Source: Bacillus sp. (in: firmicutes) (GTDB lineage: Bacteria > Bacillota > Bacilli > Bacillales > Bacillaceae). From it: a stretch of 32,630 nt of DNA. This document shows, piece after piece, positions 17,225 through 25,241 of this stretch (position 1 is its first letter; every line of letters begins with the position of its first letter). A program made the position numbers and the translations under genes. Location of the stretch: contig JAPSLU010000023.1 in the NCBI GenBank assembly GCA_031180405.1, forward strand, positions 1 to 32,630. The letters are read 5' to 3'. The notes under the pieces are model-generated. The model did not search any database and was not told the DNA's origin. It saw only the letters and a program-made list of their open reading frames with translations.

Positions 17225-19117
17225 CTATTTTTCCTCTTGTTCGATTACTAATCCATCAACATGCTTTCGATTCATTAATTTCTTCTTTTTCCTAACATCC
17301 TTCGCATCGAAAACTTGATCTAAGTCATATTCCTCAGGATATAATTCCTCAGCTAGAATAAAAGGTTTTATACGTTTATGATTAAGAGTCAATTTTTCTC
17401 CTTTCACAACTAGCTTCAATTCTCCCATTGGATTTACAGTTGTTTCCACGATGCCCTTTGTTTGCAGGTGTGGGATCCAAACCGCATCACCTACTTGATA
17501 GGCCTGGATCTGCTTATTATCTTTTCTATCTTCCTTTTTTCTTAGTCTTTCTCTTTCATTAATTGCCGGAATGAAATTTGTTTCCACATTTGGTTTTTGG
17601 TAGGAAATTTCCTTAGCTCGATGAATAATATCCAATGGCATTCCTAGTTTTTGTGCAATCGAGAATGCTTGACTGTCTCCACCTTTTCCGACAATAAGTT
17701 TATAAAGAGGTTGTAGTGTTTCGATGTCGAAATCCATTGAACCATTTTGAAATCCTGCTGCTTTTTCTGCAAAATCTTTTATTTCGCTATAATGAGTGGT
17801 AGCAACAAGCATTGCTCCTGAACGATATAAAGCTTCAAGTATCGAGATTGCTAAACCCATTCCTTCTCTCGGATCTGTCCCTGAACCAATCTCATCAAGG
17901 ATGACAAGTGTATCTTCACGTGAATAGCTTAAAATCTCAATGACATTTTTAATATGAGATGAAAATGTACTCAATGAATGCTCGATGCTTTGTTGATCAC
18001 CTATATCGACAAAGATATTTTTCACAATACAAAAGCTACTTTCAGGTTCTGCAGGTATATGAAGACCTGATTGAACCATCATGGCTAATAAGCCAATTGT
18101 TTTTATCGTAACCGTTTTTCCTCCTGTATTTGGCCAAGTAATAACTAAGGCCATATACTCTTTTCCTAACGTAATTGTTAAAGGAACAGCCGTCACACCT
18201 AACAAAGGATGTCTTGCATTGATAATCTGGAAACCTTGATTTGGTTGGAGCTTCACCTCGTTTCCACGCATTAATTTACTCAGCTTTGCCTTTGCAAAAA
18301 TGAAATCATACGAAACCATTCCTTCTATATTAATAAGAAGCTCGTGCTTATAAGCTGCAGTCAAATCTGTTAATTGCCCCAAGATCTTTTGAATTTCCAG
18401 CTCCTCTTCTACTTTTAAATATGCAAGCTCATCTTGTAGTTTATTTAAATCCTGTGGTTCCATAAAGACGGTTTGCCCACTTGAAGATTGATCAATAATT
18501 GTTCCAGGGAATTTACGTTTGTATTCATTTTTCACTGGTACAACATATCTTCCATTTCGGACACTAATTACTTGGTCTTGGAGATAAAACGCAGATGTCT
18601 TCATAATTTGTGCAAGCTTTGTTTTAATTTTTTCATCAAGAGTAGCCAATTTGCTTCTTATTTTGGATAAACCTCTACTTGCATAATCATCCACTTGATT
18701 ATTGCGAATACATCGTGTTATTTCTTCTGTAAGATCTGTTAGCTCGTATAGAGAATAAGCATAAGAGCTCACGATTGGCGCGTGATATTCTTGTTTAATC
18801 ATAAACTTTTTAATTTTTTTCACACTGTCCAAAAATACTCCTAAAAACTCAAATTGATCTGGAGTAGGCAGATATCCTTTGTCAACAAGTGTAACGATTT
18901 GTTCAACTCCATGAAGAGAGTGTACCGGAATACTTGAGGATTTCTCGATAATTTTACATGCTTCAGTTGTCTCATTTAGCCACCTTTTAATTTTTCTTTC
19001 ATCCTGGATTGGTAAAAGGTTACGTGCTCTATGTTTTGCCGCTTCACTCATTGCATAATCGCTAAGTAATGCTAAAACTTTATTAAATTCTAAACTTTCG
19101 ATTGTTTTCTTGTTCAA
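17225..19117 (-). CDS. MutS2-like ATPase without Smr domain
   Basis: 630 residues from a TTG start at 19117 (MNKKTIESLEF), chosen because GGAGG lies 8 nt before it. A TTG at 19132 in the same frame has no SD. The N-terminal core and lever domains resemble MutS2. The MutS ATPase domain has a Walker A of W-P-N-T-G-G-K-T (W328 where GPNTGGKT is expected), Walker B TLVILDEIGSGTDP and the TTHYSEIKDF segment. A KOW-like module follows (YQVGDAVWIPHLQTKGIV). Canonical MutS2 is about 785 residues. This one lacks the C-terminal Smr nuclease domain and most of the coiled clamp insertion. B. subtilis MutS2 (RqcU) is known to bind and rescue collided ribosomes. A ribosome-directed role here is an inference, strengthened by the attenuator-like leader. 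A diverged mismatch/recombination role is the alternative. Confidence 0.82.
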   Translation of the reverse strand: MNKKTIESLEFNKVLALLSDYAMSEAAKHRARNLLPIQDERKIKRWLNETTEACKIIEKSSSIPVHSLHGVEQIVTLVDKGYLPTPDQFEFLGVFLDSVKKIKKFMIKQEYHAPIVSSYAYSLYELTDLTEEITRCIRNNQVDDYASRGLSKIRSKLATLDEKIKTKLAQIMKTSAFYLQDQVISVRNGRYVVPVKNEYKRKFPGTIIDQSSSGQTVFMEPQDLNKLQDELAYLKVEEELEIQKILGQLTDLTAAYKHELLINIEGMVSYDFIFAKAKLSKLMRGNEVKLQPNQGFQIINARHPLLGVTAVPLTITLGKEYMALVITWPNTGGKTVTIKTIGLLAMMVQSGLHIPAEPESSFCIVKNIFVDIGDQQSIEHSLSTFSSHIKNVIEILSYSREDTLVILDEIGSGTDPREGMGLAISILEALYRSGAMLVATTHYSEIKDFAEKAAGFQNGSMDFDIETLQPLYKLIVGKGGDSQAFSIAQKLGMPLDIIHRAKEISYQKPNVETNFIPAINERERLRKKEDRKDNKQIQAYQVGDAVWIPHLQTKGIVETTVNPMGELKLVVKGEKLTLNHKRIKPFILAEELYPEEYDLDQVFDAKDVRKKKKLMNRKHVDGLVIEQEEK

Positions 19118-19149
19118 TGTTTGAACCTCCAAATGTATTTTTTAAAGAC

Positions 19150-19196
19150 CAAAATATCCACAGTTCAAGGCATTTTATAAGTTTCCTAAAACGGCA
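19150..19196 (-). repeat. Fragment of the dispersed repeat (end module)
   Basis: TATCCACAGTTCAA, then ATTTTATAA and TTTCCTAAA, correspond block by block to the right end of the full copy at 25161-25206. In both places this module directly abuts a terminator hairpin, so it may be a recurrent companion of terminators. Here it separates the second leader terminator from the MutS2-like start. Confidence 0.65.
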
Positions 19197-19269
19197 AAAA
19201 AAGAGGTGACGAACAATGGCTGTTCATCACCTCTTTTAGACCTTCACAAGCTCTTTGATACACATTCAT
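19186..19269 (-). CDS. Short leader ORF 2 (27 aa)
   Basis: The ORF runs from ATG at 19269 to TAG at 19186 and begins MNVYQRACEGLKEVM. AGGGGA stands 6 nt before the ATG, a strong ribosome site. The reading frame runs straight through the second terminator hairpin (19199-19237), so translating ribosomes would unwind or mask it. I recognise no protein family. It could be a regulatory ORF of the leader, or the first codons of a lost gene. Confidence 0.4.
   Translation of the reverse strand: MNVYQRACEGLKEVMNSHCSSPLFLPF
19193..19237 (-). terminator. Leader terminator T2
   Basis: AAAAGAGGTGA and GAACA pair with TGTTC and TCACCTCTTTT (one mismatch; arms 19199-19215 and 19221-19237), with a 5-nt loop. 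On the minus strand seven T follow. It lies 76 bp before the MutS2-like start and inside leader ORF 2. Confidence 0.85.
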
Positions 19270-19310
19270 ACAAATTCCCCTCTATGGGTCAGTCATATGA
19301 ACGTGGATAC

Positions 19311-19337
19311 AAAAAAACCGTACTTAAACAAGCACGG
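19311..19337 (-). terminator. Leader terminator T1 (attenuator)
   Basis: On the minus strand CCGTGCTT-gttt-AAGTACGG (19337-19318, one mismatch) is followed by seven T (19317-19311). It ends the first section of the leader, about 200 nt from the predicted start of transcription. Confidence 0.8.
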
Positions 19338-19386
19338 ATTTTCCCCACGAGCACTATGCAAGAAGATCGCAAATTGTGTACGATTA

Positions 19387-19507
19387 CCGTTTTGTTCTTA
19401 ACCGTCCACATAAACACACTTAAATAAACCTTCAAAAATAAAAGTTTTTTAAGCTGATTCATGCAGATGAAGTATTTACTTCGTTAGTTAAGAACAGAAA
19501 CCCTCAC
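19387..19507 (-). promoter_or_regulatory. Attenuator switch: leader peptide, anti-antiterminator and antiterminator
   Basis: The 3' end of the leader-peptide codons (GTTCTTAAC, 19495-19487) is perfectly complementary to GTTAAGAAC (19402-19394). The 3' half of that second segment and the next bases (AACAAAACGG, 19396-19387) can pair instead with the 5' side of T1 (CCGT then TTGTT). The two pairings share bases and exclude each other. If a ribosome stalls near the end of the leader peptide it covers GTTCTTAAC, frees the second segment and prevents T1. Without stalling T1 forms. Base-pairing is seen in the sequence; the switching is inferred. Confidence 0.6.
19484..19507 (-). CDS. Leader peptide MRVSVLN (7 aa)
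   Basis: GTG start at 19507, TAA stop at 19484. AGGAG lies 9 nt upstream. An ATG three codons further up is in frame but abuts the SD, so GTG is preferred. Position, size and overlap with the pairing segment fit a regulatory uORF of the kind found ahead of inducible antibiotic-resistance genes. I do not know this peptide. Confidence 0.55.
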   Translation of the reverse strand: MRVSVLN

Positions 19508-19538
19508 AAAACACATCTCCTAAACTGTAATTACCTTT

Positions 19539-19568
19539 AAAATACCAGATTTTGGAACGAATTGTCAA
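19539..19568 (-). promoter_or_regulatory. Promoter of the MutS2-like leader
   Basis: On the minus strand a consensus TTGACA (19568-19563), an 18-bp spacer and TATTTT (19544-19539) with an extended TGG just before it. It begins 17 bp after the stop of the upstream acetyltransferase gene. Confidence 0.7.
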
Positions 19569-19584
19569 TATGAAAACTAATATT

Positions 19585-20295
19585 TCAAAACCCATTTCTT
19601 ATATCAGTAATACTCTTACCACCTAGAAACGCATGCCCTATCTTTAGTGTCAAGATTGTTTCAAAACCCGATTTCTTATAGACCTTCTCAACTCTTTCAC
19701 TAATAGGGAGCACCCAAAACCGTTCAATATGTTTCTTTTCTATATCCTCTTGGATATGATGAATAAGCTGTCCAATAAGTCCTTTCCCTCTATACCTTTC
19801 TATTGTAGCTACACTTTCCAATCTTGCATCTTGTTTATATAAAAATTCTTTAAAAGCCTGTTCACGAATAGCCCCGCCAAGCTCTTGAATTTGGCACTCA
19901 ATATCAATAGCAGCCTGCATATTTTCAGACGTTACTGCTTCAATTGTAACAAGTGGCTGGCGTACAATTTCTATCTTTTGTTTCAATAATTGAACAGGAG
20001 ATTCAAATTCTTCAAAGTCAAATCCATTCCTCTTTAAAGCTTTAACAAATCCCTGGTGTCCATCGTAATTTGAGAGATAAAATCTTGGCGTTATATTTTT
20101 CTGTTGATAAAAAACAATAACTTCGTTGATGATCTCTTCGACATTTCCATTGTACGATGAAAGATATGCATGATTTGCATCATAATAATTTGGTTGATTT
20201 TCATTATAAAAAAGATATCCCCAATTTGTTTCTACCTTTGTGGAGAACGATGAAACATAGGCGATATCTAGTGCTTCAATATAGTCTTCAATCAT
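19585..20295 (-). CDS. GNAT-family acetyltransferase with a shortened core
   Basis: 236 residues. The N-terminal half (1-110) is a GNAT-like extension. The C-terminal half has the acetyl-CoA loop in SVATIERYRGKGLIGQLI (about 161-177) and the end motif EKVYKKSGFE. Just before the loop, FLYK (151-154) is joined directly to QDARLESVAT. Related proteins usually have about 20-25 residues here, forming the beta-4 hairpin that contacts the substrate, so an in-frame deletion is likely. The gene may therefore be impaired despite an open frame. The SD is a GGGGGAAA stretch before the ATG. There is no terminator between its stop and the leader promoter of the MutS2-like gene, so read-through into T1 is expected. 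Confidence 0.75.
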   Translation of the reverse strand: MIEDYIEALDIAYVSSFSTKVETNWGYLFYNENQPNYYDANHAYLSSYNGNVEEIINEVIVFYQQKNITPRFYLSNYDGHQGFVKALKRNGFDFEEFESPVQLLKQKIEIVRQPLVTIEAVTSENMQAAIDIECQIQELGGAIREQAFKEFLYKQDARLESVATIERYRGKGLIGQLIHHIQEDIEKKHIERFWVLPISERVEKVYKKSGFETILTLKIGHAFLGGKSITDIRNGF

Positions 20296-20462: not shown

Positions 20463-21137
20463 ATGAATATCTTATTAGCTGAAGATGATTTAAAGCTTGG
20501 TGAGCTTATTACATATATGTTAGTAAAAAAGGGAAAATATCATGTCGATTGGGTAAAAACTGGTGATGATGCCTATGAATATGCCATTGCTTCTCATTAT
20601 GATGTAATAATTATGGATTGGATGATGCCTGAAGGTGACGGAATTGAGATTTGCAAAAAATTAAGAAATGAACGCTATGGGGGAGCAATCTTAATGCTAA
20701 CGGCTAAAGATGCCATTCAAGATCGAGTAGTTGGGTTAGACTCTGGAGCAGATGATTACCTTGTTAAACCATTTGAAATTGATGAGCTGTTAGCAAGATT
20801 AAGAGCATTAGGACGCCGAAACTTTTCACCAATTCGTGAAGATGTTCTAAAAGTAGAGGAAGTAACGATTAACCGTACAAGCCAAACTATTGAATTAACT
20901 GAGCAAATCATACAGTTAACCCCCAGAGAATATCAACTGCTTGATTTACTTGTTCAAAATAAGGGTCAAGTTCTGACAAGGGACATTATTTATGATCGAA
21001 TCTGGGGAACTGAAACTGACGTGTCCTATAAAACGATTGATGCCACTGTGAAGTTACTTCGAAAAAAGCTTGCCATTTTTGACAAAGAGAATTGGCTTCA
21101 TAGCATAAGGGGAGTTGGATACAAGCTTGAAACGTAA
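20463..21137 (+). CDS. OmpR-family response regulator
   Basis: 224 residues. The receiver has D8/D9, phospho-acceptor D52 (VIIMDWMMPEGDG), T in MLTAKD and K in LVKPFE. The C-terminal winged helix is typical (LTPREYQLLDLL, TRDIIYDRIWG, HSIRGVGYKLE). AAAGGGG precedes the ATG at 8 nt. It overlaps the start of the histidine kinase gene. The target promoters are probably its own and that of the membrane protein/PspA operon 1.6 kb downstream, as both share the same direct repeat. I cannot match it to a named B. subtilis system with confidence. Confidence 0.9.
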   Translation: MNILLAEDDLKLGELITYMLVKKGKYHVDWVKTGDDAYEYAIASHYDVIIMDWMMPEGDGIEICKKLRNERYGGAILMLTAKDAIQDRVVGLDSGADDYLVKPFEIDELLARLRALGRRNFSPIREDVLKVEEVTINRTSQTIELTEQIIQLTPREYQLLDLLVQNKGQVLTRDIIYDRIWGTETDVSYKTIDATVKLLRKKLAIFDKENWLHSIRGVGYKLET

Positions 21138-22485
21138 AAAGTCAGATCTTTTTGTTAAAACACAAAAAAGCTTAACAGGTAAATACAGTTCACTAATTCT
21201 CTTGTTTTTATTTCTTTTTATTTCACTCCTTTACGCTATTGCCTATTTTTGGTTTACCTCAGCTGAAAAAAATGAACTAATGAAAATGGCAAAAAACGAA
21301 ACTAACTCAGTTGAACAGCTTTTAGAGGATTTTCGTGTTCGAAAGCATGAACCGCAATTCTTTACAGGTAATAGTAACCAGCTCTTTTATTATGTAGTTA
21401 ATTCCCATGGAGAACTCATATTACAAACAGAACAGCTGTCACTATTTAAAGGAGAGTTTCTTCAGTTAATTGCTGAATGGACACCAGCAAAAGAACAAAT
21501 TCGCACGGAAGATGTTAAGATCCACCAGGATAAGATTCTTAAACATAAAAAAGAAGATCAATTTTCAGCGTATATCCCAAAAGAGCAAGATTTAACGATT
21601 ATGATGATTGCTCAACCAATATACGACCGAAATCAGCTAATTGGCTATCTTTACTTAGGTCAGGACATTACGGATATTTCAGAGCTATTACGCGGACTTT
21701 TTATTATTCTCCTTATTATGATGGTCGTTTTTTCAATTATTGCCTATTCCTTTAGTTCGGTCATGTCCAAACGGGCGATGGTTCCAATTAGACAGGCTTT
21801 TAAGCGACAGCAGGAATTCGTTGCTGATGCCTCACATGAGCTTAGAACCCCGCTAAGTGTAATGCTGTCTTCGATCGAGATACTTGAGATGGAAAAAGAT
21901 CAGCTAAGTGAAATGCCAGCTAGAATGGTAGATAACGTAAAAGAAGAAGTAAAAAGGATGACAGGATTAGTTGGAGATTTGCTTACACTTGCTAGGTCTG
22001 ACACCGACGATCCGCAGCATATTAGTTTTGAAAGAATTGATTTTCATTCTGTTGCCGAAAAAGCTGCCCATTCCTTTGAACCACATGCTCTTGAAAAGAA
22101 AATTCAGCTTGATTTTGAGGTTCATCCTCCGGTTATTGTTTTTGGCCAAAAAGAGCGTCTAACCCAGTTGCTTTACATTCTACTTGATAATGCCATTAAA
22201 TACTCTCGTGAAGATGGTGTCGTAACATTAGCGGTTTGGAAAGAAAAAGATGATGCTTTCATTTCAGTTTCTGATTCTGGTATCGGCATAGGTGAAAAAG
22301 ACCTACCATACATCTTTGAGAGATTTTATCGAGTCGACCGCGCAAGAACACGACAAAATGGCGGACATGGACTAGGTCTTTCAATTGCCAAATGGATAGT
22401 TGATATCCATGGTGGCAGGCTTACTGTAGAAAGTAAATTAGATATAGGGAGTACATTTTTAGTAAAATTACCTCAAAAAAGATAA
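21127..22485 (+). CDS. Membrane sensor histidine kinase
   Basis: 452 residues from TTG 21127 (MKRKKSDLFVKTQKS), 12 nt after AAGGGGAG. TTG 21115 abuts the SD and is less likely. TM1 lies at about 21-43, an extracytoplasmic sensor segment follows, TM2 is at about 192-216, and then, without a clear HAMP domain, HisKA has H237 (EFVADASHELRTPLSVMLSS). HATPase_c has LLDNAIKYS, the DSGIGIG box and GHGLGLSIAKWI. It overlaps the response regulator, so the two form a coupled two-component pair. The signal is unknown, and the neighbouring PspA gene points to envelope stress. Confidence 0.88.
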   Translation: MKRKKSDLFVKTQKSLTGKYSSLILLFLFLFISLLYAIAYFWFTSAEKNELMKMAKNETNSVEQLLEDFRVRKHEPQFFTGNSNQLFYYVVNSHGELILQTEQLSLFKGEFLQLIAEWTPAKEQIRTEDVKIHQDKILKHKKEDQFSAYIPKEQDLTIMMIAQPIYDRNQLIGYLYLGQDITDISELLRGLFIILLIMMVVFSIIAYSFSSVMSKRAMVPIRQAFKRQQEFVADASHELRTPLSVMLSSIEILEMEKDQLSEMPARMVDNVKEEVKRMTGLVGDLLTLARSDTDDPQHISFERIDFHSVAEKAAHSFEPHALEKKIQLDFEVHPPVIVFGQKERLTQLLYILLDNAIKYSREDGVVTLAVWKEKDDAFISVSDSGIGIGEKDLPYIFERFYRVDRARTRQNGGHGLGLSIAKWIVDIHGGRLTVESKLDIGSTFLVKLPQKR

Positions 22486-22486
22486 C

Positions 22487-22519
22487 TTGCAGGGCAAAAT
22501 GCTCTGCAATTTTTTTTTT
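22487..22519 (+). terminator. Terminator of the two-component operon
   Basis: TTGCAGGGCA (22487-22496) pairs with TGCTCTGCAA (22500-22509), with one G/T pair and a 3-nt loop, followed by ten T. Confidence 0.95.
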
Positions 22520-22719
22520 GTAGTGCGGACAGAACATCCAATTTCTGTAGTTATTCTCTTTTTCTCTTAAATTTATTTTTCATTTCTGAAACTTATTTAC
22601 CTATTATTCTTATTTATTTTCGATTATGAAAATATATTTTCTATTTTGCAATTTCCGTCAAAATTCGAGCATTATTGCCTCCTCCACTTACCTTATAAGA
22701 TTTTCCCTCCTCTTTCAAT

Positions 22720-22753
22720 TTTTCACCGTCTTTTCACCAAATTCTTGTACATT
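22720..22753 (+). promoter_or_regulatory. Promoter and direct-repeat operator of the membrane protein/PspA operon
   Basis: TTTTCACC (22720-22727) and TTTTCACC (22731-22738) are identical and 11 bp apart. The second begins 17 bp before TACATT (22748-22753). This copies the layout at 20396. The 200 bp before it are AT-rich with no gene or other signal that I can see. Confidence 0.6.
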
Positions 22754-22799
22754 AGTATTCATAGAAACGCAAGACACATAAGGAGGAGGTGAAGCAATA

Positions 22800-23264
22800 A
22801 TGAAAAAAAGTCCTTTGTTTTGGATTATGACGGCTATTTTAGGGCTTGTAGCATTAACATTTGTTTTAAATGTATTTGGACAATTAGTTATGCAACCATA
22901 TTTTAGCCATGGTCAAGGCGGTGGATTTCACCATCATGATTTGAGAATGCTGACGTTTGGTTTATCGTTCCTTCCATTCTTATTTCATCTAGGATTAATT
23001 GTCTTAGGCTGGTGGATTTGGAGGAAGGCCAATGGAGAATCCGTGAAAAAGTGGGTTGGAATCATTCTGCTAACAGTTGGAATGTTCTCGATCCTTCCAC
23101 TAATCATTGTGATCCCAGTACTATTAATCGCGGTATATTTTATAGTCAAAGGAAAAACACAATCAGATAGTGAGTTTATCGCCGATCCAATTATCGTATC
23201 ATCCCTTTCTTACAGCAGTAACACAAATAACATTCTTGATGAATGGGAACGAAAAAACAAATAA
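22800..23264 (+). CDS. Small integral membrane protein, partner of PspA
   Basis: 154 residues. An N-terminal TM (about 8-30) is followed by a His/Gly-rich stretch (FSHGQGGGFHHHD), two more TMs (about 53-70 and 83-118, the latter possibly a hairpin) and a polar C-terminal tail that ends in ILDEWERKNK. AGGAGGAGGTG precedes the ATG. I do not recognise a named family. It is followed after 16 bp by pspA with its own SD. By analogy with LiaI beside LiaH, it may recruit PspA to the membrane (inference). Confidence 0.75.
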   Translation: MKKSPLFWIMTAILGLVALTFVLNVFGQLVMQPYFSHGQGGGFHHHDLRMLTFGLSFLPFLFHLGLIVLGWWIWRKANGESVKKWVGIILLTVGMFSILPLIIVIPVLLIAVYFIVKGKTQSDSEFIADPIIVSSLSYSSNTNNILDEWERKNK

Positions 23265-23280
23265 GGAGGAAACAAAAAAA

Positions 23281-23940
23281 ATGGGTATTTTTAAACGTGT
23301 TAAAACTATATCATTAGCCAATATGAATCATTCTTTGGACAACCATGAGGATCCGATCAGAATGGCGAAACAATATATTAGGGACCTTGAGGTTGAAATT
23401 AACAAAGCAAAATCTGCTTTAGCAAACCAGATCTATTTTGAACAAAGACATGAAGGACTTATCGTCCAAGTAAAACAGAAAATTGAGGATCGTAAAAGAC
23501 AGCAGCAGCTAGCTCTTGAAAAAAATAATGATGAGATGGCAAAGCTTGCGATTCAAGATCGGATTGAAAATGAAAAGAAACTAATCATCCTTGAAGAACA
23601 AAGCACAATTATTCAAAATCAAACTCGACAAATAAAAGCTCAAGTTGCAAACCTGAAGGATACACATTCGGACTTGCAAAATCGTAAGTCACTCCTTATT
23701 TCAAGAGCGAATATTGCACGATCAACAAATACAATTAATAGTACAGTACTTTCCACTCAATCAGAAGGTATCTTAAGCGGTTTGGCCAGAATGGAAGACA
23801 AGGTGTCGCTCCTTGAAGCTCAAGCAATTGCACATGATTATATGTATGGAAAAACACCTACATCTGAAAAAACTTATTCAATCGATGTAGAAGAAGAGTT
23901 TTTGAGAGTAAAAGAAGCGTATAGCAAAAAAGAAGAATAA
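23281..23940 (+). CDS. pspA: PspA/IM30-family envelope-stress protein
   Basis: 219 residues, nearly all helical coiled coil. The N-terminal amphipathic helix and family signature are visible as MGIFKRVKTISLANMNHSLD, then EDPIRMAKQYIRDLE. PspA/LiaH/IM30 proteins form ring or rod oligomers on stressed membranes and limit proton leakage. The start at 23281 gives the conserved N-terminus, with AAGGAGG 10 nt upstream; longer upstream reading of the frame overlaps the preceding gene and is not supported. In B. subtilis pspA is under SigW and liaH under LiaRS (NarL type). Here an OmpR-type pair is next door and shares an operator motif, a different wiring. Confidence 0.92.
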   Translation: MGIFKRVKTISLANMNHSLDNHEDPIRMAKQYIRDLEVEINKAKSALANQIYFEQRHEGLIVQVKQKIEDRKRQQQLALEKNNDEMAKLAIQDRIENEKKLIILEEQSTIIQNQTRQIKAQVANLKDTHSDLQNRKSLLISRANIARSTNTINSTVLSTQSEGILSGLARMEDKVSLLEAQAIAHDYMYGKTPTSEKTYSIDVEEEFLRVKEAYSKKEE

Positions 23941-25006: not shown

Positions 25007-25205
25007 AAGCGCAAGCGCCTTGATTAGCCCCGACAAGCATAAGACGCAATTGAATAGAAGGCGGTTCTTTGTCTTCAATTCAATTGCGTCTAGACCCTAG
25101 AGGAGCTAGACATCTTACTTTTCTGCAAAAAGTAAGACTGCTATAGCTGGATGCTAAGTCGCTTATCCACAGTTCAACAAGAATTTTATAATTTCCTAAA
25201 CGACA
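25007..25205 (+). repeat. Dispersed structured repeat, copy B (full length)
   Basis: The element runs from AAGCGCAAGCGCCTTG to the block ATCCACAGTTCAA...TTTCCTAAACG. Its centre is a long hairpin: GACGCAATTGAAT (25043-25055) against ATTCAATTGCGTC (25078-25090). A second hairpin (ATCTTACTTTT against AAAAAGTAAGA) follows. Parts recur at 1524, 19150 and 28951. Copy C differs by a paired change in the main stem. No ORF is seen in it. Confidence 0.8.
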
Positions 25206-25209
25206 GAAA

Positions 25210-25241
25210 AGGACGGCCCCAGTTTAAATTCAGGCCGTCCT
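25210..25241 (-). terminator. Terminator of the DUF3817 gene
   Basis: AGGACGGCC (25210-25218) pairs with GGCCGTCCT (25233-25241). On the minus strand TTTT follows. It lies 11 bp after the DUF3817 stop. Confidence 0.85.

Follow-up and report, generated by a model that had tools for sequence, protein, structure and literature searches.

A conserved upstream reading frame attenuator ahead of an Smr-less MutS2 paralogue in Bacillus and its probable role in inducible ribosome splitting

The window analyzed here is a stretch of 32,630 nucleotides from Bacillus sp. (GenBank assembly GCA_031180405.1, contig JAPSLU010000023.1; Bacillota, Bacilli, Bacillaceae). Its minus strand encodes a paralogue of MutS2, and this gene and the leader that precedes it are the subject of the present analysis (Table 1). 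The 630-amino-acid protein scores 598.5 bits against the MutS2 model TIGR01069 (cut-off 400) and 198 bits against the MutS2-related KamC model, under the cut-off of 300, and is 38% identical across residues 1–538 to the MutS2 of about 787 amino acids from the same genome. The leader contains a promoter-like site (10 of 12 positions matched), a Shine-Dalgarno sequence, a short upstream open reading frame (uORF) encoding MRVSVLN, a pair of complementary arms (P1), and two intrinsic terminators (T1 and T2). A first-pass annotation of the window had described the promoter, the Shine-Dalgarno sequence, the uORF, the complementary arm and T1 as an attenuator ahead of a MutS2 paralogue. Each of these elements is present as described; T2 and a TTNTTT-type pause-like motif were absent from that annotation. 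Comparative evidence establishes the attenuator about as firmly as can be done from sequence alone, and the attenuator probably controls an inducible ribosome-splitting factor, likely one triggered by drugs.

Table 1. Positions of the leader elements and of the MutS2-like gene in the window
Feature	Position	Strand	Details
Promoter-like site	19568-19539	-	TTGACA 19568-19563, 18-nucleotide spacer, TATTTT 19544-19539
Shine-Dalgarno GGAG	19520-19517	-	Ahead of the uORF
uORF MRVSVLN-stop	19507-19484	-	GTG start; GTG AGG GTT TCT GTT CTT AAC TAA, seven codons
P1 5' arm GTTCTTAAC	19495-19487	-	Within the uORF 3' end
Small hairpin P2	19482-19469	-	Directly after the uORF stop; GAAGT/ACTTC
Hairpin P3 region	19450-19422	-	Pause-like; TTATTT 19427-19422 on the 3' side
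P1 3' arm GTTAAGAAC	19402-19394	-	Complementary to GTTCTTAAC, 84 nucleotides between the arms
Antiterminator 5' strand	19402-19387	-	GTTAAGAAC running into AACAAAACGG
Intrinsic terminator T1	19337-19311	-
Second intrinsic terminator T2	19235-19196	-
Dispersed-repeat stretch	19192-19161	-	Between T2 and the gene, outside the switch
Gene for the MutS2 paralogue	19117-17225	-	630 amino acids, TTG start, GGAGG 19130-19126

The logic of the leader lies in its overlapping pairings. The 3' end of the uORF is complementary to a later segment, and the bases into which this segment runs (AACAAAACGG) are able to pair with the 5' strand of T1 through 5 + 4 pairs round an internal loop (by eye), both as the first-pass annotation had proposed. 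The TTATTT of the P3 region resembles TTNTTT, the NusG pause motif (PMC9226507). The predicted fold of 19530-19301 beats dinucleotide shuffles (z -6.7, 0/200 shuffles as low), as does that of the longer segment 19530-19110 (z -11.0, 0/100 shuffles as low). A search of Rfam gave no match at gathering score in the window and weak, implausible ones only for 19100-19600; a known Rfam leader family was consequently rejected.

Conservation of the leader was probed in 99 regions upstream of short mutS2 genes, comprising the window, 34 loci from the family, 60 from the class, and four from named genomes. A script looked for a start codon with a Shine-Dalgarno sequence, a uORF ending in [V/I]-[L/F]-[N/S/R]-stop, and a complementary arm. 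The uORF and arm were found in 80 of the 99 regions compared with 1/990 dinucleotide shuffles, and in 0/6 regions upstream of housekeeping mutS2 genes, so that the comparative check on uORF and pairings suggested at first pass came out in favor of the attenuator. The fourth named locus (L012) lies on a contig that starts inside the leader. A set of 89 leaders was then assembled from 48 of the 60 class loci, 28 of the 34 family loci, the window, three named loci, and nine loci found by a sequence pattern (L131-L139). A terminator-like hairpin follows the arm in 89/89 of these leaders, at a distance of 75 nucleotides or less in 81, and two or more terminators are present in 73. Between the uORF and the arm, TTNTTT occurs in 64 leaders (24.4 expected from mononucleotide shuffles), at a median of 26 nucleotides before the arm. 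A promoter-like match lies within 110 nucleotides upstream of the uORF in 55/89 leaders compared with 74/1780 mononucleotide shuffles. In many leaders of this type the uORF stop is soon followed by a AATTTCATA-like sequence, a loose form of the motif being present in 62/89.

The end of the encoded peptide is nearly fixed. Of the 89 uORFs, 85 terminate in the residues VLN, two in VLR (both reading VVLR), one in VLS and one in IFN. The codons vary almost as little: GTT 88 and ATT 1 for the first of these positions; CTT 86, CTG 2 and TTT 1 for the second; and AAC 84, AAT 2, CGT 2 and AGC 1 for the last, followed by TAA (77), TAG (11) or TGA (1). Where codons do change, the arm tracks them while the peptide is kept, as in L086 (CTG AAC with TTCAGAACAA), L105 (CTG AAT with GTTCAGGACAA) and L015 (CTT AAT with TTAATTGAGAACA), and the TGA stop of L092 is matched by TCA in the arm. 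The changes in L086, L105 and L092 indicate that peptide and pairing are both preserved. Furthermore, 90.4% of P1 cells are paired, against 26.9–49.0% when slid. The R/K-x-R/K motif of macrolide leaders is absent from the uORF peptides listed.

The switch was also probed in silico by folding nascent RNA whose 3' end lies in the T1 loop, using 81 leaders (eight with the first terminator more than 75 nucleotides away were excluded). With the uORF free, the median expected number of pairs is 16.8 for P1 and 0 for the antiterminator; with the uORF occupied, these values become 0 and 10.2, and at least five antiterminator pairs form in 77/81 leaders. These results support the mutually exclusive pairings claimed at first pass. 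In a separate duplex test of the arm against the T1 half, the median z was -1.88, with p of 0.05 or less in 45/89 leaders. Pairing of the same arm with T2 as a second partner (GAACA with TGTTC) can be discerned by eye in some of the leaders but not in all, and is not claimed.

The product of the gene is a short MutS2 paralogue. When 26 short homologues are combined in a profile, the alignment covers residues 1-683 of B. subtilis MutS2 and extends through the KOW region, the coiled coil being interrupted by a large gap. The MutS domain V ATPase (PF00488) is matched in 26/26 short members. The KOW/SH3 family PF20297 is matched in 3/26 (E 0.1 or better); the profile alignment passes through this region, and the predicted model has strands at 545-587. 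The AlphaFold2 model has a mean predicted local distance difference test score of 80.8 and a predicted template modeling score of 0.66, and its first 12 matches in the PDB are MutS2 structures. Together with the TIGR01069 score and the profile alignment, these matches bear out the assignment as a MutS2 paralogue. The 12 housekeeping MutS2 proteins carry a C-terminal LDLRG...HGKGTGALR, and most short proteins carry a tail of the kind ELYPExYDxDIxFxSKExRKKKKxMxRKHVxG. Compared with B. subtilis MutS2 (PDB 8qpp, 7qv3; PMC10897456), the core/lever, clamp and ABC ATPase and, going by the profile alignment, probably the KOW region are common to both proteins, whereas the paralogue lacks Smr, has a shorter coiled coil and a conserved LYPxxYD...RK tail, and is preceded by an attenuator.

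A MutS2 match was found in 80/80 genomes of the family, and a short copy in 35 of the 80, the window's included (table count). At the level of the class, 80/398 genomes contain a match to the protein of the window with an E value no higher than 1e-128, and 60 of the 75 new matches were retrieved as the class sample. A scan of named genomes yielded 11 loci in Metabacillus, Bacillus, Peribacillus, Neobacillus, Clostridium hydrogenum and a Clostridia metagenome-assembled genome. A protein tree of 107 rows was built by a quick method, drawn with a midpoint root, and carries the program's warning of long branches; the short or broken proteins of L083, L085, L087 and L101 and the duplicates L007-L011, L013 and L014 were left out. 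In this tree, short MutS2 proteins stand apart from the 12 housekeeping MutS2 proteins and form two groups, with VLN leaders on 77 rows explained by one change (96*) and another uORF type on 17 rows explained by one change (100*). The leader is thus co-inherited with the gene. Four plasmid-borne loci were retrieved after model building. Among these, L167 (652 amino acids), L169 (643 amino acids) and L170 have the leader (L170 is unannotated and its gene end unchecked), and L168, which encodes a 789-amino-acid MutS2, has no leader match.

The sister group consists of 18 short-mutS2 loci without V-L-N (L047-L052, L084, L088-L091, L094, L096-L101). In 16 of these, uORFs in a similar layout could be chosen by eye from the script listing, with none chosen for L091 and L100; examples are MSAVGSN, MSVVGIN, MSAVGTK, MSVYRF and MSVAVSSK. 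Pairing is weak in L089 and L098. In 13/16 of these loci the gene start is preceded at 39-52 nucleotides by a GGTATCTTC-like element, and a potential pairing partner of this element, GAAGAT[A/G]CC, is located after the uORF in 11/16. This pairing suggests that the sister group may have an additional, translational layer of control.

The leader is not confined to mutS2. The exact pattern GTTCTTAACTAR-N60-90-GTTAAGAAC matches 29 of 398 class genomes, and a covariance model built from 32 leaders matches 78 of the 398 at E 0.01 or better. The model includes five leaders first found by the pattern (L131, L133, L134, L136, L137), whose recovery is circular. Outside the survey of short mutS2 genes, 24 loci (9 + 15) were examined, and the model matches in genomes G287, G322, G375, G384 and G418 were left unread. 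Three of the 24 precede a short mutS2 (L136, which is frameshifted, and L148 and L150, both judged by sequence). Sixteen (L131-L135, L138-L146, L151, L154) precede a BpsA_C-type protein of about 390 amino acids, 61-86% identical to that of L140; the protein was identified by Pfam in L131 and, in L140, by a match in the PDB to N4-bis(aminopropyl)spermidine synthase. L151 is a weak match (E 0.0016) in which the uORF continues past VLN. One genome was seen to carry the leader before a BpsA-like gene twice (L132, L133). Three further loci lead to genes of resistance type, in line with the drug-gene logic invoked at first pass: a GNAT gene (L137, uORF MFVVVLN-stop), an APH-like gene (L147, uORF MSAVVLS-stop; PF01636 at 24.4 bits, cut-off 23.2), and a DHA2 efflux gene nearest to Lmr(B) (L149; 466 bits against a model cut-off of 800). 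Two ABC-F genes in one genome (L152, L153) follow weak matches (E 0.0021 and 0.0071) with the uORF MPSYC-stop. The L152 protein scores 467 bits against the ribosomal-protection ABC-F model (cut-off 380), and the inclusion of these two leaders is suggestive at most. L152 and L153 were seen to have a similar layout and the stretch AGGTTTATTTGGTTATGC in common.

The reading that probably accounts for these observations is a ribosome-mediated transcription attenuator. When translation is unhindered, the ribosome would read MRVSVLN and depart, the free 3' end of the uORF would pair with GTTAAGAAC to form P1, and T1 would then form and stop transcription. A ribosome stalled on the uORF, most likely by a ribosome-targeting antibiotic, would block P1, and the freed arm could capture the 5' strand of T1, allowing RNA polymerase to read on and the MutS2-like ATPase to be made. 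The ATPase may then recycle stalled ribosomes, by analogy with B. subtilis MutS2 and Listeria HflXr. B. subtilis MutS2 is described as splitting stalled or collided ribosomes and disomes in an ATP-driven manner, and deletion of mutS2 leads to hypersensitivity to chloramphenicol, tetracycline and erythromycin (PMC10897456). Stalling, an inducer, read-through and splitting activity are what we infer; induction by drugs appears likely from the architecture of the leader and from its other target genes, and ribosome splitting by an Smr-less MutS2 can be reasoned from the B. subtilis protein. The constant V-L-N-stop suggests that arrest is peptide-specific and takes place close to the last codon, since the uORF is about seven codons long and almost invariant at its end, compared with the three or four residues of leaders stalled at the start (MIN, MR[I/M], MK[L/Q], MAGN; PMC9226507, PMC10201436). 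Stalling at a stop codon is described for MsrDL (PMC10314930).

Several observations weigh against this reading. The core of P1 is near-invariant, with 7/12 pairs that never vary and two with a double change, and covariation support for P1 is thin because this core hardly varies. In the nascent-RNA test, shuffled T1 halves also gave at least five antiterminator pairs in 190/405 cases, indicating that the antiterminator pairing is enriched, not unique. When an equilibrium partition function was applied to leaders with T1 complete, masking the uORF left T1 in place (median 0.95 to 0.94), with a decrease of at least 0.2 in 9/81 leaders and an increase in one; T1 is thus unmelted at equilibrium, and the switch must act during transcription. 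A clear antiterminator was not found for T2. Among the other targets, no role in resistance is known for the BpsA-like gene, L149 retains the arms with the VLN frame of the uORF lost, and L152 scores like antisense matches of true leaders. With regard to the protein, the residues QxxILK through which B. subtilis MutS2 contacts uS10 find no match in the alignment (by eye), and B. subtilis MutS2 without Smr is described as binding collided ribosomes poorly (PMC10897456).

An alternative is that the attenuator responds to drugs while the MutS2-like protein acts on DNA or RNA, like other members of the MutS family, or as a sensor, without splitting ribosomes. In favor of this alternative, the Smr family is not among the Pfam matches of the 26 short members at E 0.1, Smr deletion strongly lowers ribosome binding of B. 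subtilis MutS2 (PMC10897456), and some MutS2 proteins have a described link to recombination. It is nevertheless unlikely, as the Walker-type columns are invariant among the short members and control by a leader that ribosomes translate is in keeping with a product that acts on them. The B. subtilis ATPase mutant is deletion-like on erythromycin and the KOW and Smr mutants are very modestly sensitive (PMC10897456), which makes a splitter without Smr plausible. Furthermore, the conserved C-terminal tail of the short proteins could substitute for Smr.

A less probable alternative is that the attenuator is real and its signal metabolic, such as polyamine or amino-acid status, with the MutS2-like and BpsA-like proteins serving translation or polyamine homeostasis. 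The BpsA_C protein related to N4-bis(aminopropyl)spermidine synthase is indeed the largest other target set among the loci examined (16 loci), and stalling of uORFs on metabolites, as with tryptophan and TnaC, is known. Yet the uORF is without repeated regulatory codons, the sister clade has other last residues, and the APH-like, GNAT and LmrB-like efflux targets suit drug-inducible leaders. That the leader is a non-functional relic or chance arrangement, or simply the terminators of the upstream GNAT gene, is very improbable: T1 and T2 do lie between that gene (20295-19585) and the MutS2-like gene, and repeats adjoin them, but the uORF, arm, pause motif, promoter-like site and terminators are kept in distant relatives including Clostridia, and this conservation largely contradicts it.

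Beyond the control of the MutS2-like gene by a drug-responsive attenuator, a broader proposal can be made, for which the chances seem about even. In this view, an arrest peptide that senses drugs and an RNA switch, neither described before, would together make up the V-L-N leader, and the genes behind it would form a small regulon of Bacilli and Clostridia. Smr-less MutS2 would be its main effector and a new class of inducible resistance or tolerance factor, splitting drug-stalled ribosomes through its ATPase and new tail; the further effectors would include the BpsA-like protein, as an aminopropyltransferase or methyltransferase that modifies the drug or the ribosome.

The choice between termination and expression by uORF translation has been shown experimentally, with differing details, for vmlR, msrD, cplR and hflXr (PMC9226507, PMC10314930, PMC10201436, PMC6310831). 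A close likeness is to hflXr (lmo0762)/rli80 of Listeria monocytogenes, which is likewise a second splitter copy beside a housekeeping one under a uORF attenuator and is induced by lincomycin and erythromycin (PMC6310831). In contrast, hflXr encodes an HflX GTPase behind a 14-amino-acid uORF with RLR, whereas the present leaders precede MutS2 and have 6-8 codons ending in V-L-N-stop. Because hflXr already places an inducible ribosome splitter under such control, the type of gene suggested at first pass is not entirely new. The leaders of vmlR in B. subtilis (PMC9226507) and cplR in C. difficile (PMC10201436) likewise place the uORF in an anti-antiterminator stem ahead of a terminator and a ribosome-acting ATPase, and the vmlR leader has a pause hairpin with TTNTTT, as here. 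Their uORFs (MIN, MR[I/M]) are thought to stall ribosomes around initiation and their products are ABC-F proteins, in contrast to the longer peptide with a fixed end, the often two terminators and the MutS2-like product described here. In the msrDL leader of streptococcal msrD, an intrinsic terminator is likewise preceded by a very short uORF (MYLIFM), and NusG-type pausing has been considered (PMC10314930); this leader is without sequence kinship to the VLN leader. Among the literature matches listed, from a coverage outside which preprints and most subscription journals fall, none linked MutS2 to a leader, uORF or attenuator.

Some neighboring features were also observed. The GNAT acetyltransferase gene, on the minus strand, ends just ahead of the promoter-like site, and a similar reading-frame end was seen before the leader in several loci of the same genus. 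The first-pass annotation had flagged a repeat fragment between leader and gene as a caveat. The repeat is present, and lies after T2 and outside the leader. It is a short dispersed repeat with a further copy at 25164-25213 of the window, and other contigs of this genome carry similar copies. On the plus strand, 20463-23940 holds response regulator and sensor kinase genes followed by genes for a small protein and a LiaH/PspA-like protein, with scores under the cut-offs of those models.

If the proposed mechanism is correct, MutS2 would be the second family of splitters, after HflXr, in drug-inducible ribosome rescue, and the short proteins would reveal what MutS2-type ATPases do without an Smr domain. 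The leader would provide a ready-made sensor, and its peptide, encoded by about seven codons and almost constant in its V-L-N-stop, is directly testable. The BpsA-like targets are candidates for resistance chemistry of a new sort. Finally, relatives of this protein that currently carry the annotation "mismatch-repair protein MutS" or "endonuclease MutS2" would receive a better name.

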